Shown here in pieces: positions 4,206-31,785 of a stretch of 32,216 nt of DNA. The first letter of the stretch is position 1, and each line of letters begins with the position of its first letter. The stretch spans positions 1 through 32,216 of IMG/VR virus record IMGVR_UViG_3300004448_000182, one strand, 5' to 3'. This DNA is from a virus. A program made the position numbers and the translations under genes. The notes below the pieces were generated by a model, which ran no database searches, was not told the origin of the DNA, and saw nothing but the letters and a program-made list of their open reading frames with translations.

Positions 4206-4399
4206 TGAAACAATGGCATGGAGGAAAAGGTTCTGTACGAAGGAACTCAAACGAAGAATCCTATGCTGACAATTGGGAGAAAATCTTTGGTAAAAAGAAA
4301 CCCGATTTAAAAGTCAGAAAAGAAACACCGAGTCATGGTGTTACACAAGTCCATTCGGACAAAACAAAATACGATAGAAAAAAAATTAAGAATACTTAA
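4205..4399 (+). CDS. small basic phage protein (WHGGKGS family)
   Basis: This 64-residue, Lys/Arg-rich protein begins in a TAATG overlap with the bS21 stop. Its N-terminal pattern QWHGGKGSVRR, then YADNWEKIFGKKK, is one I have seen in small conserved proteins of many tailed phages, always short and of unknown function. Given its charge and coupling to bS21 it could bind nucleic acid or the ribosome; that is inference. Its 3' end overlaps the end of the opposite-strand tape-measure candidate by 14 bp, and both stop codons lie in the palindrome 4386-4399. Confidence 0.75.
   Translation: MKQWHGGKGSVRRNSNEESYADNWEKIFGKKKPDLKVRKETPSHGVTQVHSDKTKYDRKKIKNT
4378..4399 (-). terminator. intrinsic terminator of the minus-strand late operon
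   Basis: Read on the minus strand, TTAAG-TATT-CTTAA (4399-4386) forms a 5-bp hairpin followed by eight T (4385-4378). The palindrome contains the stop codons of both converging genes. The stem is short and AT-rich, so efficiency is uncertain. There is no T-tract for plus-strand transcripts. Confidence 0.5.
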
Positions 4400-6743
4400 C
4401 GTCTACTAGTCTTGCCGAGTCATCGGGATTTCTGAACAAAGGACGAGTGTTATTAATGGTAGTACTTCTATTATCTACATTAGTATTCATAGCAGTATTA
4501 TTCACTGCAGTGTTGTTAGTACCGTCCATACCTTTTGTATTAATGGTTAAGTCTCTCTGAGTATTGTTATCAACTATACCTTTGTACTTTCTAAGTGCAT
4601 CTGCAATTTTTGATTCCTTTTCTTCATTGGAAATATCCATACCATTTATTGATGCCAGTGTTGCAGTCAATTCTTGTGCCTGACCATCAAAGGTTGCAAG
4701 TTTATCACCACCCATGCCACCTAACATTGCACCACCAACACCACCTATCAAACTCAATGCAATTGCAGCCCAACCAACAGGGTTGGAACCTAGCAAAATT
4801 GCAGCTGCAGCTGGTGCGGCTGCACCCATTAATCCACCTGCCCAACTTCCAATACCACGTCCAACACTACCTCTTTTATTTGCAGATTGAGCTCCTTCAG
4901 CAGTCTTTAACATATCACCTGTTAGAAGGCCTTCTGATTCTAACCCCTCTATACCTTTACCATATTTGTTCTGTTCTCTATTATCAAAGAATACATCTAG
5001 ACCACTTCCAACGAGAGGTAATTTTGCACCTAAATTTTTCACAACTTGTCTATCAAAGTTTGCTGCAAGTCTCATTTTCTTGCTCCTCATTAATCCCTCA
5101 TCGAGAATGTCATCTAACTCTGAAGGGGATATGTTTAGCATTTTTTTCAGTTTTGCTGGGTCATTCAACTTATCCTTACCGTATATGTTAGAAAATTCTG
5201 CCTTCCAGTCTTTCCAAAACTTAGTTCTTTTATCTAACTTGCCATCTTTATTAAATAGTTTATCAACCTTTCTAGGGTCTTGGTCATCAAAATTTTTAAG
5301 TAGGTCTTTATAATTCGACCTTGCACTATAACTTTCATAAGATTCGGATGCAAGTTCATCAGGTCTAACCTTATCTGTTATTTTGTTGTTTTGGTATACG
5401 TCTAACCCTTTAGAAAGTGCAGAAAATTCACTGTTGTTATCTTCACTAGCACTTGCGTAGGCTGCTCCACCTAATCCTAATCCAGCAAGTCCACCAAGTA
5501 GTTTTCCTCTTCCACCCAGTTTAGGCATTTTACTTAGAAATCCTGCTCCTTTACCTGCTCCTTTACCTGCTGCTTTTCCTGCTTTCTTTCCACTCCCATC
5601 TCTAACTGCTTCTAAAGATGCCTGTGTTCCTTTAAACCCAAGAGCTCCTGCTACTGTTCCTACTGCGCCCGCTATTAATCTAGCAAATCCACCACCAAGA
5701 AACATTGCTGATAAAGAGTTCTTATCACCCCCACTCTTTGAGCTATTAATAGCCCCTCCAATTATTAATGTTCTTAATAGTTTATTAGTTGTTGCAACAC
5801 CTTCGTTAACTTCTTCAGTTTCTTTTAGTTCTTTCTTTGCAATTTTTATTGCAGGGTCTACCTCTTGACTATCTCCAGCTATGGATGACACGATATCGTC
5901 ATTGCCTCCAAAACCGAAAGAACTCATGATACTGCCAGATAGGTCTTTACTACCAAACAGTTTACCCACTGCATCTATCTTATTAACAGCACCATCTAAT
6001 GTGCCTAATAAATCTAAACCTGTAAGTTCTTTAAGTCCTTGACCGAACATAGTAAACTTAGTATCTTGGTCTGCTATTTCTTTTGACTGTTTTTCAACAG
6101 TTTCGTTGAGTTTCTCTAAATTAGATTTAGACTTACTCATTAAGTCTTTCTGTATTTCTAATTCTTCTCTTTTGGTATCATAGATTTCTGTTTCAAACTT
6201 TGTGAGTGCTAAAGATTGTTTTTTCTTTTCTGCTTCAAGTTTTTTCCCATACTCTACTTGACCCAAACCTTCTGCACGAAGTTGGTCTAACTCTAGTTTT
6301 TGTATCTTGTCTCGGTAGTCCTGAACCTCTTTACGATTTTCAATCTCTGCATTTGCAATTTCTTGTTCTAATATTAATGCTCTCTTTTGATTTGTACCAT
6401 AATTGTCTTGTGCAGTTTTTAGTTGGTCTAAGAACCCACTGGTTCCACTAAGTTTATCCAACCCTTCTGCAAGTTTCTTATATGTTTTTGTAGTTTTATC
6501 TGCATTGTCAGAGGTTGCTTGTACAACTTGTTTAGTATAATTCTGTAATTCTTTGGCATTGACAGCTGCTTTATAGGAACCTTTAGTAGTTTCCCTTAAA
6601 TCTGCAATAGTTTTTGCAAGAGGTGTGTTAACTTCCTGCATATTTCTAACAACCGATTTAAACTTCTTACTAAATTGTTCTGTAGTTTTAAGAAGTTCTT
6701 GTTCTCTCTGTTGTTTTAATTTACTTATACTATCATCTGCCAT
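4386..6743 (-). CDS. candidate tail tape-measure protein (gp29 position)
   Basis: This 785-residue protein has the build of a tape measure: long charged coiled-coil helices at about residues 1-230, a hydrophobic Gly/Ala-rich segment at about 343-370, a Gly-Lys run (AGKAAGKGAGKGAG) at about 387-401, another hydrophobic Gly-rich stretch at about 407-431, and a membrane-like segment at about 640-690. The C-terminus is Asn/Thr-rich (NNTAVNNTAMNTN). It lies downstream of gp54, gp26 and gp51 in a hub/tail-tube operon, the place expected for the T4 gp29 function (590 aa in T4) that sets tail length. I see no clear sequence identity to T4 gp29, so the call rests on composition and context. The start is ATG 6743 with AAGG upstream; it ends in a convergent overlap with the plus-strand gene. 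Confidence 0.55.
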   Translation of the reverse strand: MADDSISKLKQQREQELLKTTEQFSKKFKSVVRNMQEVNTPLAKTIADLRETTKGSYKAAVNAKELQNYTKQVVQATSDNADKTTKTYKKLAEGLDKLSGTSGFLDQLKTAQDNYGTNQKRALILEQEIANAEIENRKEVQDYRDKIQKLELDQLRAEGLGQVEYGKKLEAEKKKQSLALTKFETEIYDTKREELEIQKDLMSKSKSNLEKLNETVEKQSKEIADQDTKFTMFGQGLKELTGLDLLGTLDGAVNKIDAVGKLFGSKDLSGSIMSSFGFGGNDDIVSSIAGDSQEVDPAIKIAKKELKETEEVNEGVATTNKLLRTLIIGGAINSSKSGGDKNSLSAMFLGGGFARLIAGAVGTVAGALGFKGTQASLEAVRDGSGKKAGKAAGKGAGKGAGFLSKMPKLGGRGKLLGGLAGLGLGGAAYASASEDNNSEFSALSKGLDVYQNNKITDKVRPDELASESYESYSARSNYKDLLKNFDDQDPRKVDKLFNKDGKLDKRTKFWKDWKAEFSNIYGKDKLNDPAKLKKMLNISPSELDDILDEGLMRSKKMRLAANFDRQVVKNLGAKLPLVGSGLDVFFDNREQNKYGKGIEGLESEGLLTGDMLKTAEGAQSANKRGSVGRGIGSWAGGLMGAAAPAAAAILLGSNPVGWAAIALSLIGGVGGAMLGGMGGDKLATFDGQAQELTATLASINGMDISNEEKESKIADALRKYKGIVDNNTQRDLTINTKGMDGTNNTAVNNTAMNTNVDNRSTTINNTRPLFRNPDDSARLVDVKYS

Positions 6744-6755
6744 GGGGATACCTTA

Positions 6756-7079
6756 TTACTTACCTTTACTATATGCTTGTGAACCAAAGAATGCAGCTAC
6801 GATACCTGCAACTGCAACAAAGTATGTTGCGGCCATATCACCGAGTATTTTAGATGCTTGGTCTAGTCCGATTACATCTGCAAGAACAACTGCAAAAGGA
6901 TATAACAGTAATCCACCTAGTGCGAACCATGTCATATTTCTTTGTGCATCTCTCATTGCATCTGCATCTTCAAGTTCCTTTCTCTTAAACTCTAGATACA
7001 TTTGTTCTTCTTCTTTTGAAACCTTCCCATCACCATTTGTATCGGCAGGATGGAATTCTTTTTTGTCTTCATCACTCAT
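6756..7079 (-). CDS. EF-hand protein with two membrane segments
   Basis: This 107-residue protein has one canonical calcium-binding EF-hand/dockerin-type loop near the N-terminus (DTNGDGKVSKEE: D, N, D, G and final E in place). A charged helix follows (MYLEFKRKELEDADAMRDAQ), then two hydrophobic segments: about residues 50-70 (WFALGGLLLYPFAVVLADVI) and about 82-102 (AATYFVAVAGIVAAFFGSQA). Similar EF-hand proteins occur in marine T4-type phages and are reported as virion or hypothetical proteins. Lying between the gp26/gp51 pair and the tape-measure candidate, it may be a tail component that enters the host membrane, or a holin. Neither is shown. GAGGAC just upstream of ATG 7079 is a plausible ribosome-binding site. 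Confidence 0.75.
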   Translation of the reverse strand: MSDEDKKEFHPADTNGDGKVSKEEEQMYLEFKRKELEDADAMRDAQRNMTWFALGGLLLYPFAVVLADVIGLDQASKILGDMAATYFVAVAGIVAAFFGSQAYSKGK

Positions 7080-7124: not shown

Positions 7125-7361
7125 TTAACCGTGTTCTTGTTGTCTTATTCTCTCTCGTTCTTCTTCGAGGTAGTCAACAAGAAGTTTTATATAAATCTCC
7201 CTTTCCCATGGTATCATTTCTTCTAATTCTGTTAATGAGTACTTGTGTTCCTGCATTAACTGAAAGTTAGATTGATAATAACCAACTAAACTTTCATGAG
7301 AAAGAGCTATTAAAAAAAAGAGTTTAGTCCTTCTAATACTCTTTCTTGTTGAGTCCCACAT
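7125..7361 (-). CDS. 51: gp51-like baseplate hub assembly factor, probably expressed by -1 frameshift from gp26
   Basis: The C-terminal part (YSLTELEEMIPWEREIYIKL followed by LVDYLEEERERIRQQ) resembles the short gp51 hub-assembly proteins of marine T4-type phages and the second-frame part of tail-chaperone pairs (PxEREIY pattern). The nominal ORF opens at 7361, inside gp26, where the same bases encode the gp26 CELC zinc motif; no Shine-Dalgarno precedes this ATG. Only the part after the gp26 stop (7313-7125, 62 residues) is likely real. gp26 ends in a slippery T-TTT-TTT at 7319-7313, and the gp51 frame is -1 relative to gp26, so a gp26-gp51 fusion of about 295 residues is the likely product. 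An internal ATG at 7256 is an alternative start, also without a Shine-Dalgarno. Confidence 0.7.
   Translation of the reverse strand: MWDSTRKSIRRTKLFFLIALSHESLVGYYQSNFQLMQEHKYSLTELEEMIPWEREIYIKLLVDYLEEERERIRQQEHG
7291..7319 (-). promoter_or_regulatory. programmed -1 ribosomal frameshift signal (gp26 to gp51)
   Basis: On the minus strand the gp26 frame reads TCT TTT TTT TAA. The heptamer T-TTT-TTT (7319-7313) is a canonical X-XXY-YYZ slippery site. Eight nt further, CTTTC-TCAT-GAAAG (7304-7291) forms a 5-bp hairpin, the usual spacing for a stimulator. After a -1 slip the next codons are TTA ATA GCT, which is the gp51 frame. Sequence shown; function inferred. Confidence 0.65.
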
Positions 7362-8011
7362 AATTCACATGTGTACTCAACTGTTTCTTTTAATGAAGGT
7401 GTGTTCATGTAGTAATCGTTTATTTTCTCTAATTGGTCTATTGTTAGAGACTCAACAAACTCTTTTAAGTCTGCATCTGTTATATCGTTACTTTCATAAA
7501 CATCATTTTCATCAAATATGGATTCTATACCATACATTACTGTTGCAATTAACCGTTCATCTATGTTCATCATATCTTCTATTACGGATAACTCTTTGAC
7601 ACTAGGATATTTTAACACTAATCCTAAATTATCTGTTAACATTAACTTAGTATCTTGTGTATTTTCAGTAAGTTTGATATTTGCTAAATCAATATCTACA
7701 CTTCCACTACCCGTACAGTCTGTTTCGTTGCATAAAAACTTTATATTAGTAGTTTCACCTACCGATTTAGTTCTAATTTGTAAAAATAAGTACTCTAAAT
7801 CAAATAAAGGTAGTTTATTTGCATCAACTTTACCAAAAGTAACACTTTCAATCAATTGAGTTAGAGCGCCTGCGATTTCTTTACCGTCTTCACTCTCTTT
7901 TGCAATCAAAAGATACTTTTGTTCTTTAACTAAGAAGGGTCTGTACGTAACATCCCTTCCGTCACTTAATTTGCACACATATGTGGGTGCTGTTTGGATT
8001 GGTAATCCCAT
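7310..8011 (-). CDS. 26: gp26-like baseplate hub subunit with Cys4 zinc site
   Basis: This 233-residue protein fits the T4 gp26 baseplate hub family (T4 gp26 is 208 aa). It opens with PTYVCKLSDGRDVTYRPFLV and continues KEQKYLLIAKES, the typical start of this family. Four cysteines in two pairs (C94/C99 in CNETDC and C215/C218 in CELC) probably bind zinc. The middle carries the SVGETTNIKF segment, and the C-terminal half is helical (DLKEFVESLTIDQLEKINDY). gp26 and gp51 are needed for hub assembly in T4, and by position and size this gene resembles the tail-chaperone G gene before a tape measure. It follows the gp54-like gene with a 19-nt gap. Its last codons form the slippery site for a -1 shift into gp51. 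Confidence 0.8.
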   Translation of the reverse strand: MGLPIQTAPTYVCKLSDGRDVTYRPFLVKEQKYLLIAKESEDGKEIAGALTQLIESVTFGKVDANKLPLFDLEYLFLQIRTKSVGETTNIKFLCNETDCTGSGSVDIDLANIKLTENTQDTKLMLTDNLGLVLKYPSVKELSVIEDMMNIDERLIATVMYGIESIFDENDVYESNDITDADLKEFVESLTIDQLEKINDYYMNTPSLKETVEYTCELCGTQQERVLEGLNSFF

Positions 8012-9575: not shown

Positions 9576-10199
9576 TTAAAAGGAATAATTTAGTAAAGAT
9601 TCTTTTGTAAATTTAATCTCTTTTACAGTTTGCATAACCTTAATACTGTTTGCATACATTTCAGGTCGGTCTTCTGCAACATGCATTTCAATCATGTTAG
9701 GTGTAAGAACTGCAAACATATTATTATCACTCTTAGTGTATAACTCAAACCATGTATCAAAATCAAGGGGTTCGTTAGAAGAGTCTTTGTCCCATAAGAC
9801 AAACTCTTGGTCTAACTTATTTAAATGTATAAGTGCATGGACTCTATGAGTGCCAGGATGTACAACCCATTTATCACCTTTCATGTATGCTTGAGGAACG
9901 GAATACAGTCCTTTAGTTTTAATCTCATTGATTAACCATATGAGTTTAGTTGCATGAAAGTTTTCATTATACTCATAGATATCCATTTTCTCTCTGAAGT
10001 TTTCTGCAACAACTGGTTCGAGTTCTTTGTTGTCTAATAAATGTTTTGCTAATCTGATATGGTCTTCGGGTCTAGGTTCCCAATCGTTTTCTAGTGCTTC
10101 ACCTAATGTAACTAATTTAGGTTTGACCATTAACCCATCAAATATTATTCTGAGCTCATCTATATCATTTTGAGTGTTTAAGTGTTTAACTTCTTCCAT
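9576..10199 (-). CDS. ParB/sulfiredoxin-fold protein in the sugar-nucleotide cassette
   Basis: This 207-residue protein has a ParB-N/sulfiredoxin-like signature: after a helical first half, YSVPQAYMKGDKWVVHPGTH continues RVHALIHLN, with the HPGTHR motif (residues 114-119) corresponding to the GxHR nucleotide-binding box of the superfamily. The fold is used by ParB CTPases, sulfiredoxin and small-molecule kinases. Overlap with kdsB (14 nt) argues for a metabolic or regulatory partner in CMP-sugar synthesis rather than DNA partition; this is inference. It has no HTH DNA-binding domain that I can see. Similar HPG-type proteins occur near glycan genes in marine phages as I recall them, without assigned function. 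Confidence 0.6.
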   Translation of the reverse strand: MEEVKHLNTQNDIDELRIIFDGLMVKPKLVTLGEALENDWEPRPEDHIRLAKHLLDNKELEPVVAENFREKMDIYEYNENFHATKLIWLINEIKTKGLYSVPQAYMKGDKWVVHPGTHRVHALIHLNKLDQEFVLWDKDSSNEPLDFDTWFELYTKSDNNMFAVLTPNMIEMHVAEDRPEMYANSIKVMQTVKEIKFTKESLLNYSF

Positions 10200-10899
10200 T
10201 TAAATGTTCCTCTACTAATTTTATATCGTTGGGTGTATCTACAGACAAACCTACATCATCTACATGCACCATCTGAACATCATATCCATTCTCTAAGTAT
10301 CTCAACATCTCTACACTTTCAGATTTCTCTAGACTCTGCATAGGTAGGTCTCTGAATAGTTTAAGTCGTTCTTTGGAGAATGCATAGAGTCCTAGTTGTT
10401 GATATTTTGATATTGGTAATCTAGAATAATACATTGCACAATGATGTGAGTCTATTACTGCCTTAACTACATTTACGTCTGTAAGTTTATACGGTTCATT
10501 AATCTTGACGTATGCATTTGCAGTACCAATATTAGGATTGTAGTATTCGACCAATCTATCAATTGCATCAGGGTCAATCAGGGGTTCATCACCTTGGATG
10601 TTAACATAGATGTCTGCATCAAGTGTATCAAGTGTAAGTGCAATTCGGTCAGTCCCCGTTTTTACATCCTGATTTATCCTGATTACATTCAGGGTATTTT
10701 CATTACAATAGTTTTCAATTCGGTCATCATCCGTAACCACGTAAACTTCGTCTAGTCTCTTTGACATCAATGCACGGTCATAGACACGTTGTATCATTGT
10801 TTGTCCACATATCATTGCAAGGGGTTTACCCTCGAACCTAGTGGAAGCCCAACGGGCAGGTATTAGACCGACTGTATTGATTTTGCTTTGTTCCAACAT
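10186..10899 (-). CDS. kdsB: CMP-Kdo synthetase-like cytidylyltransferase (KdsB)
   Basis: This 237-residue protein matches 3-deoxy-manno-octulosonate cytidylyltransferase (CTP + Kdo to CMP-Kdo + PPi; E. coli KdsB is about 248 aa). Motifs in order: LIPARWASTRFEGKPL (12-27, CTP loop), YVVTDD (53-58), GTDRIALT (82-89), YVNIQGDEPLIDP (98-110, metal-binding Asp104), YYSRLPI (157-163), QQLGLYAFSKERL (167-179), SVEMLRYLENG (195-205) and SVDTPNDI (219-226). All the main catalytic blocks are present, so the enzyme is probably active, though preference for Kdo over another ulosonic acid cannot be read from sequence. It overlaps the HAD gene by 37 nt and the ParB-fold gene by 14 nt. Confidence 0.88.
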   Translation of the reverse strand: MLEQSKINTVGLIPARWASTRFEGKPLAMICGQTMIQRVYDRALMSKRLDEVYVVTDDDRIENYCNENTLNVIRINQDVKTGTDRIALTLDTLDADIYVNIQGDEPLIDPDAIDRLVEYYNPNIGTANAYVKINEPYKLTDVNVVKAVIDSHHCAMYYSRLPISKYQQLGLYAFSKERLKLFRDLPMQSLEKSESVEMLRYLENGYDVQMVHVDDVGLSVDTPNDIKLVEEHLNGRS

Positions 10900-11441
10900 T
10901 CTACTTTACCATATCCATATTCTGCATGTATAAAATCTACACCCGATGCATCTGCACATTCTTTGTCTACTATCATGTCGCCAATATAGACTGCATCACT
11001 GGGACTTGTATTACAATGTGCAAGGGTATATAGTAGTTGGTCGGGTGAGGGTTTACCTCTTAGTCCTTCAGTAGGACAACAGATGAAATCAAACTCAACG
11101 TCCAACTTAGATAAGATGTCATGTGTTCTATCTACATGTTTAGATGTAACAATTGCAAGTTTCTTACCTTGAGACTTAAGTAGTTTCAGATGGTCTTCGA
11201 CACCATCATAGAACTTAATCATTTTACTATTCTTTGAAGAGAATGCATTGTACTCTTTCATAAGTTTATCTTGGTCAGTAAGTATACCAATCTCAGTTAG
11301 TATGTCTTTGAATGGTTTACCAATAAGTTTAAAGTAGTCTTCAAATGGTCTACCAGTTTTTAAAGAGTTAAACGACTTCTCCATATTTTTTTTAGAGTCT
11401 ATTAAGACCCCGTCTAAGTCAAACACATATAGTTTTTTCAT
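10863..11441 (-). CDS. HAD-family phosphatase
   Basis: This 192-residue protein is a haloacid-dehalogenase-type phosphatase. Motif I is FDLDGVLIDS (residues 7-16), with nucleophile Asp8 and acid Asp10. A helical cap follows. Motif II is the Ser/Thr in AIVTSK (96-101), motif III is Lys130 in RGKPSPD, and motif IV is GDMIVD (154-159). The C1-type cap makes it more like phosphoglycolate phosphatase (Gph) relatives than classic KdsC, which lacks a cap. Overlap with kdsB suggests it dephosphorylates a sugar-acid phosphate before CMP activation, as KdsC does before KdsB, but the substrate is not provable. It starts 2 nt after the gp4 stop, so it rides on the late gp4 transcript. Confidence 0.85.
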   Translation of the reverse strand: MKKLYVFDLDGVLIDSKKNMEKSFNSLKTGRPFEDYFKLIGKPFKDILTEIGILTDQDKLMKEYNAFSSKNSKMIKFYDGVEDHLKLLKSQGKKLAIVTSKHVDRTHDILSKLDVEFDFICCPTEGLRGKPSPDQLLYTLAHCNTSPSDAVYIGDMIVDKECADASGVDFIHAEYGYGKVECWNKAKSIQSV

Positions 11442-25131: not shown

Positions 25132-28100
25132 ATGCCAGAGAAAACTGATTTAAATATAGCACCGTATTACGATGATTTTGCTGAAGATAAGAAATTCAAT
25201 AAAGTTCTTTTTAAAGCGGGTCGTCCATTACAGTCAAGAGAATTAACCCAAACTCAATCTATTTTACAGAATCAAATTGAAAGATTTGGTTCTCATATGT
25301 TTGAAGAAGGTTCTTTAGTTACTGGTGCAGAATCAGATGTCGATTTAGAAGTATTCTATGTTAAAGTAAACTCTGCAAATCCTAATTCACTTGGTGATGC
25401 AAATGTTGAAGATTATAGAAAACTTTTTCATGGTAAATTTTTAAGAGGTAAATCTTCGGGTGTTGTTGGTAAAGTTTTTGAATCAAGTGCAGAAACCTCT
25501 GCTGATGCAATTACATTATTCGTAAAATTTCATTCACAAGGTACTGATGCAAATAACTCAATAGTTTTTTACTCGGGTGAAGAACTGCAAGAGTGTACAC
25601 TTGGTGAAGATGGAACAGTTACGGTAAACTCTGCAAACGCAAACGAATTTACAATAAAACCAAAAACAGATAACCCAGTTGGTCGTGCTTCTATTGCAAG
25701 TATATCAGAAGGTATCATATTTGCAAGAGGATTCTTTTGTAAGGTTGATGCACAAACATTAATTTTAGAAAAGTATTCAGGTAAACCAACATATAGAGTA
25801 GGTCTAACAATTGCAGAAAGTCTTTTATCTTCTGCAGACGACACAAGTCTTTTAGACAACTCTTCAGGTACAACAAACGAAAATGCAGCTGGTGCTGATA
25901 GACTTAAAATAGATTTTACATTATCTAAGTATACACTTGATACTGTAAATGACGTGGACTTTGTAGAACTTGTCAGGGTCAATCAGGGTATCATAGAATT
26001 AAAAATTACTAGACCGATATACAATGAGATTGAAAACTCAATGGCACGAAGAACATTTGATGCAAATGGTGATTTCGTTGTAAGACAATTCACACATAGT
26101 TTAAGAGAACATTTAGACGATACTACAAATAGAGGTTACTACACTTCAACAAATGGTGGAGATGTAAATAAATTTATAATGCAAGTATCGCCTGGTAAGG
26201 CATATGTAAAAGGATATGAGATAGACAAAATTGGAACAACACCAATACCTTTCAATAAGGCAAGGTCTACAGTTACATTAAACAATACAAACACTCCAGT
26301 AAGAATTGGAAACAAATTAAGAATTACAAACGTTCACTCTTTACCTGAGTTTGGTAACGAAAGTGGAGATGCAACTATATCACCATTTAAAGAAGTCACA
26401 CTTTGGGATACTACAATAACAAGTGATGGAACAGAACCTGCAAGTGGAAAGATTGGTTTTGCAAGATTAAGAAACATAGATTTACAAAGTGGTACTGCAT
26501 CATCACAAGAATATGATGCAACTTCTACTTGGAACTTATACTTATTTGATATTAAGATGTTAACAAAACTTAGTGGTACACTAAGTGGAACATTTACGGA
26601 AGGAGACCAAGTAGTTGGTGGAACTTCAGCTGCAACAGGTATTGTTTCATATACTGCAAGTGGACAATTATATGTTCATGATGTAGTTGGTACATTCGTA
26701 GTTGGAGATGCAATCACAACTAACGGTACAACTTCGGGAACAACTACAGTTACTGCAGTAAGAAATTACAACATTGACCGTGCAAGGGGTATATCACAAG
26801 ACCCAGTAGATGCAGGTTCAACTATATTTACTGCAAATGTAGAAGTAGATGCAAGTAAAACATTATTAGGAACCGTAACATTCACAAACAGTTCTACATC
26901 AGTCACTGGTTTTGCAACAAAATTTACAACAGAATTAAAAGAGGGTGATATAGTTATCAATCCTTCAAACTCTAACGAAGAATTAATAGTTTCAAGTATC
27001 ACTGATGATACTACACTTACACTTGCAGGTAATGCTGGTGGTTCGTATACTGGTAATGTCACAAGAAAACGTGCAAAAATATATGACCAAGACCAAACTT
27101 CTTCGGTCTTTGCATGGCCAAGAGACTGGGTAAAAACACATTCATGTGATTCTATTCAAGTAAGAAGACAACAAGTTGTTGATGTATCAGGTGGTTCATT
27201 CACAATATCAACAGGGTCAAACGCAACATTTGGTGCATTAAACACTGATAATTTTACAATTGCAGTAGTAGATGAATCAGCAGACGGAAGTGCGTATGGT
27301 TTAGGAGACCTATTAAATGTAGAAGACTTTACAGGAACTGCAGCTTCAGATGGTGGTTCAGGTCAAACACTTACTAAATCAATTGCAAACAATGACGGTG
27401 CAAAACTTAAAATTACATTTACAGTAAATAGAACAAATCCAGCTTCTAGAAATAAAACATTAAGACAATCAAGATTACTTGGAGTCGAGAGTGCAAGAAG
27501 TGCTGGTGGATACTATGGTACTGCATATGATGATAAAGAAATCACATTGGGTGTTGCAGATGTTCACAAGATTCATGCAATATATGAAGGAGTAGGAGGA
27601 ACAACACCTCTATCACCTTCATCATACTTCTCAGTAGATAGTGGAACATTCCAAGTATACGAAACAATCGTAGGTCAAACTTCAGATGCACGTGCAGTGT
27701 TAATCACATATAGTGGTTCACTTGCAACTTCATATTATAGAATGGTATCAGGTACCTTTACAGAAGGCGAAAGTATTGTTGGTCAAACTTCAAAAGCAGT
27801 CGCAACAATTACTAGTGTATCACAAGGTTCGCCAGATATTAAAAATAGATTCTTCTTTGACAACGGACAAAGAGACGGATTCTATGACCTTGCAAAACTT
27901 ACAAGAAAGGTTGGAGAACCAACTCCTTCAGGAAAAATATTAGTAGTGTTTGATTACTTCACTTCAGATAGTGGAGACTTCTTTGATGTTGAGTCATATA
28001 CTTCAATACCATATCAAGATATTCCAGTATACTCTCCAAGTAGAGTAGACTTAGGTGGTTTAGAACCCGATGGAACGTTTGAACTTTCAGACGCAGTTGA

Positions 28101-31100
28101 CTTTAGACCAGTTGTAGGACAAATTATTGGTACCTCAACATTCGGAACAACAAATACACAAGACCCAACTAACCCAGTAAACTTATCAAATAGTACAGAG
28201 GGTGCTGTCTTTGCACCATTCGGATATGATACAGGTAGAGATTTTGGCTCATCAAGAGTTGGTATATCATCTACTGGTGCAAGTGCAAACGATACTCCTG
28301 TTTCAGGTTCAAGTGTTGTTGGTGACATATCTTTCTATGTTGGTAGAATTGATAAAGTATTCTTACATAAGTCAGGTGCATTCCAAACTTCTGCAGGTAT
28401 ACCTTCACTATCACCGACTAAACCTAAGGCTATAGATGATGCGATAGAACTATTTGAAGTTCAAATTCCTGCATACACTAAAAACTTAAAGAACATAAGA
28501 GTTAGAACACAAGACCATAGACGATATACTATGAAAGATATCGGTAAGATTAATAACCGTGTGACTAACTTAGAAAGACTTACTGCATTATCTTTATTAG
28601 AAAGAGATACACAAACAAAACAAATTTTAGATGCAGATGGATTTGATAGATTTAAATCAGGGTTCCTTGTAGATAATTTCAGAGGACATAGAGTTGGTGA
28701 TGTAAACCATCCCGACTATCAAGTAGGTGTAGATACAAAACTTGGTGCAATGAGACCTAAGTCTTACTCACAATTTTTTGATATTGAATTCAATAGTACA
28801 TTGTCATCAAACTTTCAAAAGACTGGAGATTTGATTACACTACCTTATACACCTGCAACATATGTAAATCAAGATAAGGCCTCAAGAACAATCAATGTTA
28901 ACCCGTATCATGTATTCAATTTCTTCGGTACGGTTAAGTTATCGCCCGAAACAGATATTTGGAATGATACTGAACAACTACCCGAAGTAAGAATTAATAG
29001 AGAAGGAAACTTTGATGCTGTTCTTGCAGAAAATACAAATTCACTAGGAACAGTTTGGAACTCATGGCAGACAACATGGGTCGGTGAACCTAACGTAGTA
29101 TCTACAGAAGTTCAGGCAACTTCTAATGGTTCATGGAGTGGAGACCCAGCACAAGGTGGAGAATGGGTTGCAGGATTACAAGTATCAAGAGAAGTTACTG
29201 AAACTGTTGAAACACAAACAAGAACAGGTGTAACAACAAGTGTTGTAGAAGACTTCGTAGAATCAAGAAACGATAGAGTTGTAAGTATATCAATAGTACC
29301 TTTCATGAGGTCTAGAACAATTGAAGTTGATGCAACAAATTTAAAACCAAATTCAAATCATTACTTCTTCTTTGATGGAATTAGAGTTGATGGGTTTGTA
29401 AGACCATTTAGTACAACATATTCGCAAGACGGTGGAACAACTATTTCATCAAATTGTAAGTCAGATGGTAACGGTAGACTTCGTGCATACTTTGAATTAC
29501 CTAATAGTAATAAACAAAGATTCCCAACAGGACAGAGAGAACTTAGATTAACATCAAGTTTCTATGATTTATCAAACCCAGGCTCACAAGCAAGTGGTAT
29601 CTATCAGGCACAAGGTTTACTACAATCTAACCAAACAGAGATTACATCTACAAGAAATGGTAGGGTAATATTAGAAAGAACAAACAGTTCTAGACAAATT
29701 ACTAGAAGTGGTGAGAGATTGAATGCACAAGTATTCGATTCAGTTTCACCTCCTATACCTCCAGTGCCAGAATTGCCTGTTATACCTACAATTATACAAG
29801 ACCCTGTAGAAATACCAATTTCGCCACCAATACAACCACCCCAGTTACCACCTTTAGATGAGGAGCCACCATTTATAGCACCTCCTGCATTTATTCCTAC
29901 ATCAAGGGGATTGGATATAATAGATGTGCCTGATAGAAGGTTCTTTGATTTCCCATTAGAAAGAGGTTGGGGAGACCCACTTGCACAATCATTCTTGGTT
30001 GAAAAATCAGGTGGTATGTTCGTAACATCTATAGATTTATATTTTGAGAAGAAGGACACAACACTACCAGTTTCTGTAGAAATTAGAAACATGGTAAACG
30101 GTTATCCAGGCCAGACTGTAATACCTTTCTCAACAGTGACTAAGAATCCAGGCAATGTAAATACTTCAACTGATGGTTCAACTGCAACAACATTTACTTT
30201 TGAATCACCAGTTTACTTAGAAGAAGATTTTGAATACTCATTCGTTGTGTATTCTAACTCAAATGAGTATACTACATTCATATCTAGAATGGGTGAGAAA
30301 GACCTTGCAACAAGTCAGACAATTTCAGGACAACCATATGCAGGTTCATTGTTTGTATCTCAAAATGCATCAACATGGACTGCAACACAAGAAGACGACC
30401 TTAAATTCCATATGAAGATTGCATCATTTGATACATCAAAGAATCCTGTATTGAAATTTGAGAATAAGACATTACCAGTTTCTACATTACAGTCAAATCC
30501 TGTTGAGACATTTAGTGGTCAACAGTATGTAAAAGTTTATAACTATACACATGGTATGTACACAACAAATTCAAATGTAATCCTTGCAGGTATAACAGGA
30601 GATAAAGAAAACGGAGTTCTAAATATTGCAACTCCTTCAGTGAGTGGGACACCTAGTAATGGAACATACACTGTATCCTTAACTGGTGGGACTGGAACAG
30701 GTGCAAGTGCAGAATTTACAGTTTCAGGTAATGCGATAACCACTTCGTATATTACAGACCCAGGCACTGGATATGCAACAACAGATACATTAAGTGCAGT
30801 AAACTTTGACGGTGGAACTGCAGACTTAACAGTGGGTGTAGATGTGGTCGGAGATACACTAGGTGGTGTTCCAGTGGCTGCAATCAACCAATCATTTACT
30901 GCAATTGCAAATATTGGAATAGATTCATTTACAGTAATCCCCGATATTTCAAGTTATGATGTTAAAACAACTTATTCTGCAAATGACTCAACAGTCGGTG
31001 GTGGGGAAGTTGCAACTTCAACAAGAAACTATTACTACGATACCCTACACACATTGATACCAAGTTTAAATTATTCTATGACTAGAATAGTTGCAAGTGT

Positions 31101-31785
31101 ATTGAGAACCCCTATGGATTCACCCGAAGGGTATAGTAATGGAACTGCATATACTAAGAAAACATCAAGTGACTTTATCACTTTAAATGATAATGTATTC
31201 TTTGATTCTCCAAGTGTTATTGCATCTCCATTAAACGAAACAAATGAAATGTCTTCAGAGAAATCATTTACATGTACACTTCAATTACAATCTGTAAACG
31301 GAAACGTTTCACCAGTAATTGACGTTGGTACAATTGGTGCAATCGGTATATCTAATAGAATTAATAATATCAATAGTTCTTCAGATGTTCCTACTGGAAC
31401 TACATATACTGCATCAACAGACCCCGATGGAGATAACAATGCAATGGTATATTGCACAAGAAAAGTTAATCTAAAAACACCTGCAACTACACTTAAAGTA
31501 ATTGCAGATGTATTCAGACCACCAACAACGGGTGTTCAAGTATTATATAAAATTCTTAAGAATGATGAGTCAACACCGTTTGATGATTTAAATTGGGAAT
31601 ACTTTAACACATTAGGAACGCCTGATGTAACTACAGAGGCTGATGCAAGAAACTTTAAAGAATATGAGTGGACTGTTGATGACTTGCCAGAGTTCAGTGC
31701 ATTTGCAGTTAAAGTTGTAGGTAAAGGAAGTAACACTTCAGTAGTTCCTATGGTATCAGCATTAAGGTGCTTAGGACTTGCATAA
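25132..31785 (+). CDS. giant gp10-like baseplate/tail-pin protein (2217 aa)
   Basis: This protein follows gp8, where T4 has gp9/gp10 (gp10 is 602 aa). The N-terminus LNIAPYYDDFAEDKKFNKVL then FKAGRPLQSRELTQTQSILQ is the DUF4815-type start used for baseplate attachment in marine phages. Residues about 480-545 and 835-900 hold GTFTEGDQVVGGTSAATG- type repeats. A helix follows (KDIGKINNRVTNLERLTALS), then a part with two Trp-rich loops. A proline-rich hinge lies at about 1536-1600 (PPIPPVPELPVIPT and similar). After it, GWGDPLAQSFLVEKSGGMFV starts a C-terminal carbohydrate-binding-like region, with a Gly-rich insert at about 1835-1905. It may combine wedge pin and fibre functions. AAGGA precedes the ATG closely. 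Confidence 0.65.
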   Translation: MPEKTDLNIAPYYDDFAEDKKFNKVLFKAGRPLQSRELTQTQSILQNQIERFGSHMFEEGSLVTGAESDVDLEVFYVKVNSANPNSLGDANVEDYRKLFHGKFLRGKSSGVVGKVFESSAETSADAITLFVKFHSQGTDANNSIVFYSGEELQECTLGEDGTVTVNSANANEFTIKPKTDNPVGRASIASISEGIIFARGFFCKVDAQTLILEKYSGKPTYRVGLTIAESLLSSADDTSLLDNSSGTTNENAAGADRLKIDFTLSKYTLDTVNDVDFVELVRVNQGIIELKITRPIYNEIENSMARRTFDANGDFVVRQFTHSLREHLDDTTNRGYYTSTNGGDVNKFIMQVSPGKAYVKGYEIDKIGTTPIPFNKARSTVTLNNTNTPVRIGNKLRITNVHSLPEFGNESGDATISPFKEVTLWDTTITSDGTEPASGKIGFARLRNIDLQSGTASSQEYDATSTWNLYLFDIKMLTKLSGTLSGTFTEGDQVVGGTSAATGIVSYTASGQLYVHDVVGTFVVGDAITTNGTTSGTTTVTAVRNYNIDRARGISQDPVDAGSTIFTANVEVDASKTLLGTVTFTNSSTSVTGFATKFTTELKEGDIVINPSNSNEELIVSSITDDTTLTLAGNAGGSYTGNVTRKRAKIYDQDQTSSVFAWPRDWVKTHSCDSIQVRRQQVVDVSGGSFTISTGSNATFGALNTDNFTIAVVDESADGSAYGLGDLLNVEDFTGTAASDGGSGQTLTKSIANNDGAKLKITFTVNRTNPASRNKTLRQSRLLGVESARSAGGYYGTAYDDKEITLGVADVHKIHAIYEGVGGTTPLSPSSYFSVDSGTFQVYETIVGQTSDARAVLITYSGSLATSYYRMVSGTFTEGESIVGQTSKAVATITSVSQGSPDIKNRFFFDNGQRDGFYDLAKLTRKVGEPTPSGKILVVFDYFTSDSGDFFDVESYTSIPYQDIPVYSPSRVDLGGLEPDGTFELSDAVDFRPVVGQIIGTSTFGTTNTQDPTNPVNLSNSTEGAVFAPFGYDTGRDFGSSRVGISSTGASANDTPVSGSSVVGDISFYVGRIDKVFLHKSGAFQTSAGIPSLSPTKPKAIDDAIELFEVQIPAYTKNLKNIRVRTQDHRRYTMKDIGKINNRVTNLERLTALSLLERDTQTKQILDADGFDRFKSGFLVDNFRGHRVGDVNHPDYQVGVDTKLGAMRPKSYSQFFDIEFNSTLSSNFQKTGDLITLPYTPATYVNQDKASRTINVNPYHVFNFFGTVKLSPETDIWNDTEQLPEVRINREGNFDAVLAENTNSLGTVWNSWQTTWVGEPNVVSTEVQATSNGSWSGDPAQGGEWVAGLQVSREVTETVETQTRTGVTTSVVEDFVESRNDRVVSISIVPFMRSRTIEVDATNLKPNSNHYFFFDGIRVDGFVRPFSTTYSQDGGTTISSNCKSDGNGRLRAYFELPNSNKQRFPTGQRELRLTSSFYDLSNPGSQASGIYQAQGLLQSNQTEITSTRNGRVILERTNSSRQITRSGERLNAQVFDSVSPPIPPVPELPVIPTIIQDPVEIPISPPIQPPQLPPLDEEPPFIAPPAFIPTSRGLDIIDVPDRRFFDFPLERGWGDPLAQSFLVEKSGGMFVTSIDLYFEKKDTTLPVSVEIRNMVNGYPGQTVIPFSTVTKNPGNVNTSTDGSTATTFTFESPVYLEEDFEYSFVVYSNSNEYTTFISRMGEKDLATSQTISGQPYAGSLFVSQNASTWTATQEDDLKFHMKIASFDTSKNPVLKFENKTLPVSTLQSNPVETFSGQQYVKVYNYTHGMYTTNSNVILAGITGDKENGVLNIATPSVSGTPSNGTYTVSLTGGTGTGASAEFTVSGNAITTSYITDPGTGYATTDTLSAVNFDGGTADLTVGVDVVGDTLGGVPVAAINQSFTAIANIGIDSFTVIPDISSYDVKTTYSANDSTVGGGEVATSTRNYYYDTLHTLIPSLNYSMTRIVASVLRTPMDSPEGYSNGTAYTKKTSSDFITLNDNVFFDSPSVIASPLNETNEMSSEKSFTCTLQLQSVNGNVSPVIDVGTIGAIGISNRINNINSSSDVPTGTTYTASTDPDGDNNAMVYCTRKVNLKTPATTLKVIADVFRPPTTGVQVLYKILKNDESTPFDDLNWEYFNTLGTPDVTTEADARNFKEYEWTVDDLPEFSAFAVKVVGKGSNTSVVPMVSALRCLGLA

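Follow-up and report, generated by a model that had tools for sequence, protein, structure and literature searches.

In phage lambda, the tail assembly chaperone (TAC) pair gpG/gpGT is produced by a -1 slip on the heptamer G_GGA_AAG. For T4-like phages, the abstract of Vladimirov, Gautam and Davidson (2022; Virology 566:9-15) reportedly states that frameshifting is conserved in several groups and that T4 itself uses genes 26 and 51. Two papers that cite this study describe parts of it: according to the PRFect paper, some T4-like phages carry short and fused long TAC genes instead of frameshifting (PMC10885494), and according to the paper on phage Adele, the TAC-N genes of T4-like phages contain poly-T slippery sequences (PMC12846349). 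T4 was excepted from the G-T frameshift rule by Atkins et al. 2016 (PMC5009743), and elsewhere T4 gp26 and gp51 are both listed as hub assembly chaperones (PMC3004832).

We analyzed a 32,216-nucleotide stretch of viral DNA (IMG/VR record IMGVR_UViG_3300004448_000182; "the window"). Its gp26-gp51 region is very probably a cassette in which a T4-type TAC is expressed through -1 programmed ribosomal frameshifting. The support comes from the sequence: a slippery heptamer, the frame relation, the conservation of both, the many relatives in which gp51 lacks a usable start, and a fused homolog in T4. As far as the 2022 study is described in its abstract and in the citing papers, the locus does not differ from it in anything essential (same family, short gene and long fused form, poly-T slippery sequence), and our finding is a correct rediscovery, in an uncultured marine relative, of a frameshift that was already proposed for T4-like phages. 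We add a count over 212 junctions, the missing starts, and a folding signal downstream, although the 2022 paper might already contain these.

The locus resembles lambda gpG/gpGT in that a -1 slip is predicted shortly before the short gene ends, the downstream frame would be translated only as a fusion, and a tape-measure candidate follows. It differs in that its heptamer is U-rich and abuts the stop codon and in that there is a candidate downstream hairpin, and the likeness to lambda is one of layout rather than of shown homology. The TAC locus of Pseudomonas phage Adele and the Vandenendeviridae has a -1 shift at a conserved poly-T (GTTTTT) that leads from TAC-N to TAC-NC (PMC12846349); these are other phage families, and we liken them to the window by slip motif and layout.

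The predicted short and long products

The short product, gp26 or TAC-N, is encoded by an open reading frame of 233 amino acids on the minus strand (7310..8011) that ends in ..GLNSFF, with a TAA stop at 7312-7310. Profile searches identify it as a member of the T4_baseplate family (PF12322, 2e-53) and match it to PHROG 150 (3e-58), and it is homologous to T4 gp26 in a pairwise comparison (E = 3e-8). Relatives of gp26 are encoded in 873 phage records and relatives of gp51 in 569. The AlphaFold2 model of gp26 has a mean pLDDT of 90.8. When gp26 models (pLDDT about 91) were searched against the PDB, there was no significant match to a solved chaperone; the HK97 tail assembly chaperone (2OB9), which has the TAC fold, ranked 22nd and was below significance (E = 2.5, probability 0.20). 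The models were good and all PDB matches were non-significant, and we dropped the assignment of a TAC fold by structure search.

In the -1 frame, the gp51 or TAC-C extension (7125..7313, minus strand) begins by re-reading base 7313 and adds 62 residues (LIALSHE..RQQEHG) before a TAA stop at 7127-7125. Read from 7319, this frame matches PHROG 634 ("baseplate hub assembly catalyst"; 3e-26), and it also matches the final ~50 columns of PHROG 150. The predicted fusion, TAC-NC (7125..8011, minus strand), has 295 amino acids and the junction ..NSFFLIALSHE..; the original prediction was of a gp26-gp51 fusion of about 295 residues.

We propose that the majority of ribosomes would read gp26 to its stop and make TAC-N (233 amino acids), and that a minority would slip back by one base on U_UUU_UUU, continue in the gp51 frame, and make TAC-NC (295 amino acids). 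Both the slippage and its rate are what we infer from the sequence, and a downstream hairpin would be expected to raise the rate. By analogy with lambda gpG/gpGT, the short and long forms may cover the tape-measure protein and bring in the subunits of the tube.

Conservation of the slippery heptamer

On the minus strand, the 3' end of gp26 reads AAC TCT TTT TTT TAA. The run of eight T (7319-7312) contains the heptamer T_TTT_TTT, or U_UUU_UUU in the RNA (7313..7319, minus strand), whose final two codons are the last before the gp26 stop; after a -1 slip the reading would be TTT TTT TTA ATA GCT CTT TCT CAT GAA... Both the heptamer and the -1 relation of gp51 to gp26 had been pointed out, and both hold up in the window and in its relatives. 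Phage records and viral contigs together provided 212 different 3' ends of gp26; in 209 of these junctions, which share ancestry and are not independent events, there is an in-frame T_TTT_TTN. Its first six T are fixed, and its last base is C in 134 cases, T in 71, G in 3, and A in 1. The gp51 frame is -1 and spans 52-69 codons in every junction but one (L323), which is a T4-type gp51 gene that was picked up by the search.

The codon ahead of the heptamer always ends in T (AGT, GAT, TCT, AAT, GCT, or GGT). The residue that it encodes has changed repeatedly, among S, D, N, A, and G, yet the T in the third position was kept; as background, 25% of the codons before other phenylalanines end in T. 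Similarly, the T_TTT_TTN spelling is found at just 16 of 206 (7.8%) other Phe-(Phe/Leu) dipeptides within the bodies of gp26. By these comparisons, the heptamer occurs at the junctions more often than expected by chance. Synonymous codon choice is about 2-3-fold more constrained over a stretch that runs from the codon before the heptamer to about +15 nt, in part because a stop is needed out of frame. Overall, the region has an in-frame, conserved heptamer of the form X_XXY_YYZ and a conserved open -1 frame with protein conservation from the slip site on.

Within the 212-junction set, the heptamer is absent from the gp26/gp51 junctions of Salmonella phage S118 and Vibrio phage D504. Each has a gp51-like -1 frame after gp26: in S118 (L144, 3739-3902) there is no obvious early start, and in D504 (L147, 3721-3896) there is a TAATG overlap.

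Starts for gp51 and other explanations of the junction

The nominal ATG of gp51 (7359..7361, minus strand) lies inside the CxxC motif of gp26 (YTCELCG), and the sequence ahead of it, AAACAGTTGAGTACACATGTGAATT-ATG, has no Shine-Dalgarno; the original prediction was right in both respects. The -1 frame of close relatives is open from just 3-4 codons before the gp26 stop, and they have no start equivalent to 7361. We judge from these comparisons that the ATG at 7361 is not a real start.

Could gp51 nevertheless be an independent gene that is translated by reinitiation or from an internal start, with the T run being incidental? In databases, gp51 does appear as a short gene of its own. Also, 74 of 209 relatives have a -1-frame ATG upstream of +36 nt, and TGATG or TAATG overlaps are present at the gp26 stop in Rhizobium phages, phiM12, D482, and Yut2. 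Lineages with such overlaps or an early ATG may make free gp51 as well. However, 95 of the 209 junctions lack any ATG, GTG, or TTG in the -1 frame up to +36 nt past the heptamer, and 36 have this frame closed by a stop at most 6 nt upstream of it. The gp51 block (IALSHE.. in the clade of the window) is conserved from the slip site onward despite these missing starts. Since those 95 lack a start before the conserved block, frameshifting is the only ordinary route of translation that they would have. Furthermore, an incidental T run does not account for a heptamer spelling that is kept through changes of residue, and the records of S-WAM1, S-CAM4, DSL-LC03, and Sf-CH1b have an intact -1 frame but no annotated separate gp51 gene. 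We therefore give the independent-gene explanation very little credence.

Alternatively, the RNA polymerase rather than the ribosome might slip on the T8 run and so bring gp51 into frame. The window has eight consecutive T, which is close to the run length that makes bacterial polymerases slip. But 134 of the relatives have TTTTTTC, with only six T, and there are G and A variants too; the pattern fits X_XXY_YYZ and not a growing homopolymer. Transcriptional slippage is highly improbable. Homopolymers are error-prone in sequencing and assembly, but the idea that the gene is truly continuous can practically be dismissed, as the frame break is common to all relatives, with differing run lengths and following bases, and is also present in the finished isolate genomes of S-PM2, phiM12, and CC2; this disposes of an error in the T run, which had been raised as a way in which the original prediction might fail.

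A ribosomal frameshift also has consequences for annotation. Sullivan et al. 2010 noted, without an explanation, that cyanophage gp51 is only ~20% as long as T4 gp51 and is missing the first ~200 residues (PMC3037559). Under frameshifting, the missing ~200 residues would be gp26, to which gp51 is joined. Many public records omit gp51 or assign it a doubtful start, and either fault could be put right; for example, gp51 is unannotated in the record of Aeromonas phage CC2, and we can supply it.

Two observations concern individual junctions. In five relatives (L145, L146, L149, L151, and L153), an in-frame heptamer and an overlapping TGATG or TAATG are both present, so that two possible routes to gp51 lie side by side. 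And gp51 goes unannotated in five public records (L142, L148, L331, L332, and L333) that contain its intact -1 frame, which is a systematic gap.

RNA structure downstream of the heptamer

The original prediction included a 5-bp hairpin, CTTTC-TCAT-GAAAG (7291..7304, minus strand), 8 nt past the heptamer. It is present at 7304-7291, but it is not conserved: it is complete in just 18 of 123 relatives, and no compensatory changes in it were found among them. Thus, the suggested alignment of the junction in relatives bore out the slippery run and the frame relation but not this hairpin. In the window, a distal AACTTTC is a better pairing partner for GAAAG than the CTTTC of the 5-bp hairpin. We rejected the 5-bp hairpin as the stimulator; it is probably not the relevant element.

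That distal pairing belongs to a 14-bp hairpin (7261..7296, minus strand; -12.5 kcal/mol), which is a better fit than the 5-bp hairpin and which we consider to be a candidate stimulator. It has an outer stem of 8 bp (7296-7289/7268-7261) and an inner stem of 6 bp (7286-7281/7276-7271), and it shares GAAAG with the 5-bp hairpin, so the two are mutually exclusive. It starts 16 nt past the heptamer, the usual spacing being 5-9 nt.

We compared the folding of 123 sequences to controls that preserve the gp51 protein and the local codon usage. The RNA just past the heptamer is more stable than these codon-matched controls (mean z = -1.66, with p ≤ 0.05 in 44% of the 123), and for the window itself z is -2.1. 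In the same test, windows within gp26 have z of -0.10 to -0.26, and in later gp51 windows the excess fades to about -0.3 to -0.5. The hairpins themselves are lineage-specific, with 14 bp in S-PM2 and up to about 12 bp near the heptamer in other cyanophage groups. A single conserved, covarying stem was tried and rejected: the 8-bp outer stem of the window was paired in 81% of cells, which does not beat shuffles, and RNAalifold found no stable consensus structure over the relatives.

On the folding statistics, a stimulatory hairpin is likely as a class, and the exact structure in the window and its 16-nt spacing are uncertain. We tentatively suggest, with a little less than even confidence, that the slip site is old and fixed while the stimulatory RNA turns over. 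Every lineage would then possess a strong hairpin of its own, about 5-20 nt downstream and formed by different bases of the same coding stretch, and selection would maintain folding rather than a particular structure.

Comparison with T4 genes 26 and 51

T4 gp51 (249 amino acids) aligns with the predicted fusion at E = 3e-16 over 270 alignment columns, from residue 13 to residue 278, and so crosses the junction. PHROG 150, a profile of 282 columns, matches T4 gp51 from end to end and matches both halves of the fusion. T4 gp26 (208 amino acids) aligns with the short form and ends at the same place. In other words, T4 gp26 is homologous to the short form, and gp51 is homologous to the whole of the long form, C-terminal domain included. 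The difference is that in T4 these are two separate genes on opposite strands and the slippery site is absent: the 3' end of gp26 in the T4 group reads GAG TTC TTT (in T4 and its closest relatives) or is otherwise broken.

By homology, then, the short form corresponds to T4 gp26 and the fused long form to T4 gp51, which are encoded as separate divergent genes; a short/long TAC pair that is predicted to arise by -1 frameshifting here is made from two genes in T4. That the hub proteins are the equivalent of a tail-chaperone pair was part of the original prediction, and it is borne out in that T4 encodes both predicted forms, in agreement with the earlier work as cited in PMC10885494 and PMC12846349. 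Frameshifting phages and two-gene T4 offer a natural contrast for asking why a fixed ratio of short to long forms is needed.

The tape-measure candidate and other open reading frames in the window

Two genes downstream of gp51 is an open reading frame of 785 amino acids (4386..6743, minus strand), a candidate for the tape-measure protein given its position and weak profile matches in relatives. Its own match to tail proteins is weak (PHROG 1047, 1e-4), and the syntenic genes of phiM12 and D482 have weak matches to tape-measure families. Between gp51 and this candidate lies a 107-amino-acid open reading frame (6756-7079, minus strand) whose N-terminus weakly resembles an EF hand and which also has hydrophobic stretches; at this position, small open reading frames of varying length occur in other phages.

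Elsewhere in the window, an insert at 9576-11441 (minus strand), between the DNA end protector and head-closure genes, encodes a cytidylyltransferase (CTP_transf_3, 5e-39), a HAD hydrolase (1e-31), and an open reading frame of unknown function, and is possibly a sugar-nucleotide module. After the baseplate wedge genes, an open reading frame of 2217 amino acids (25132-31785, plus strand) matches PHROG 358 and PHROG 877, which are families of unknown function.
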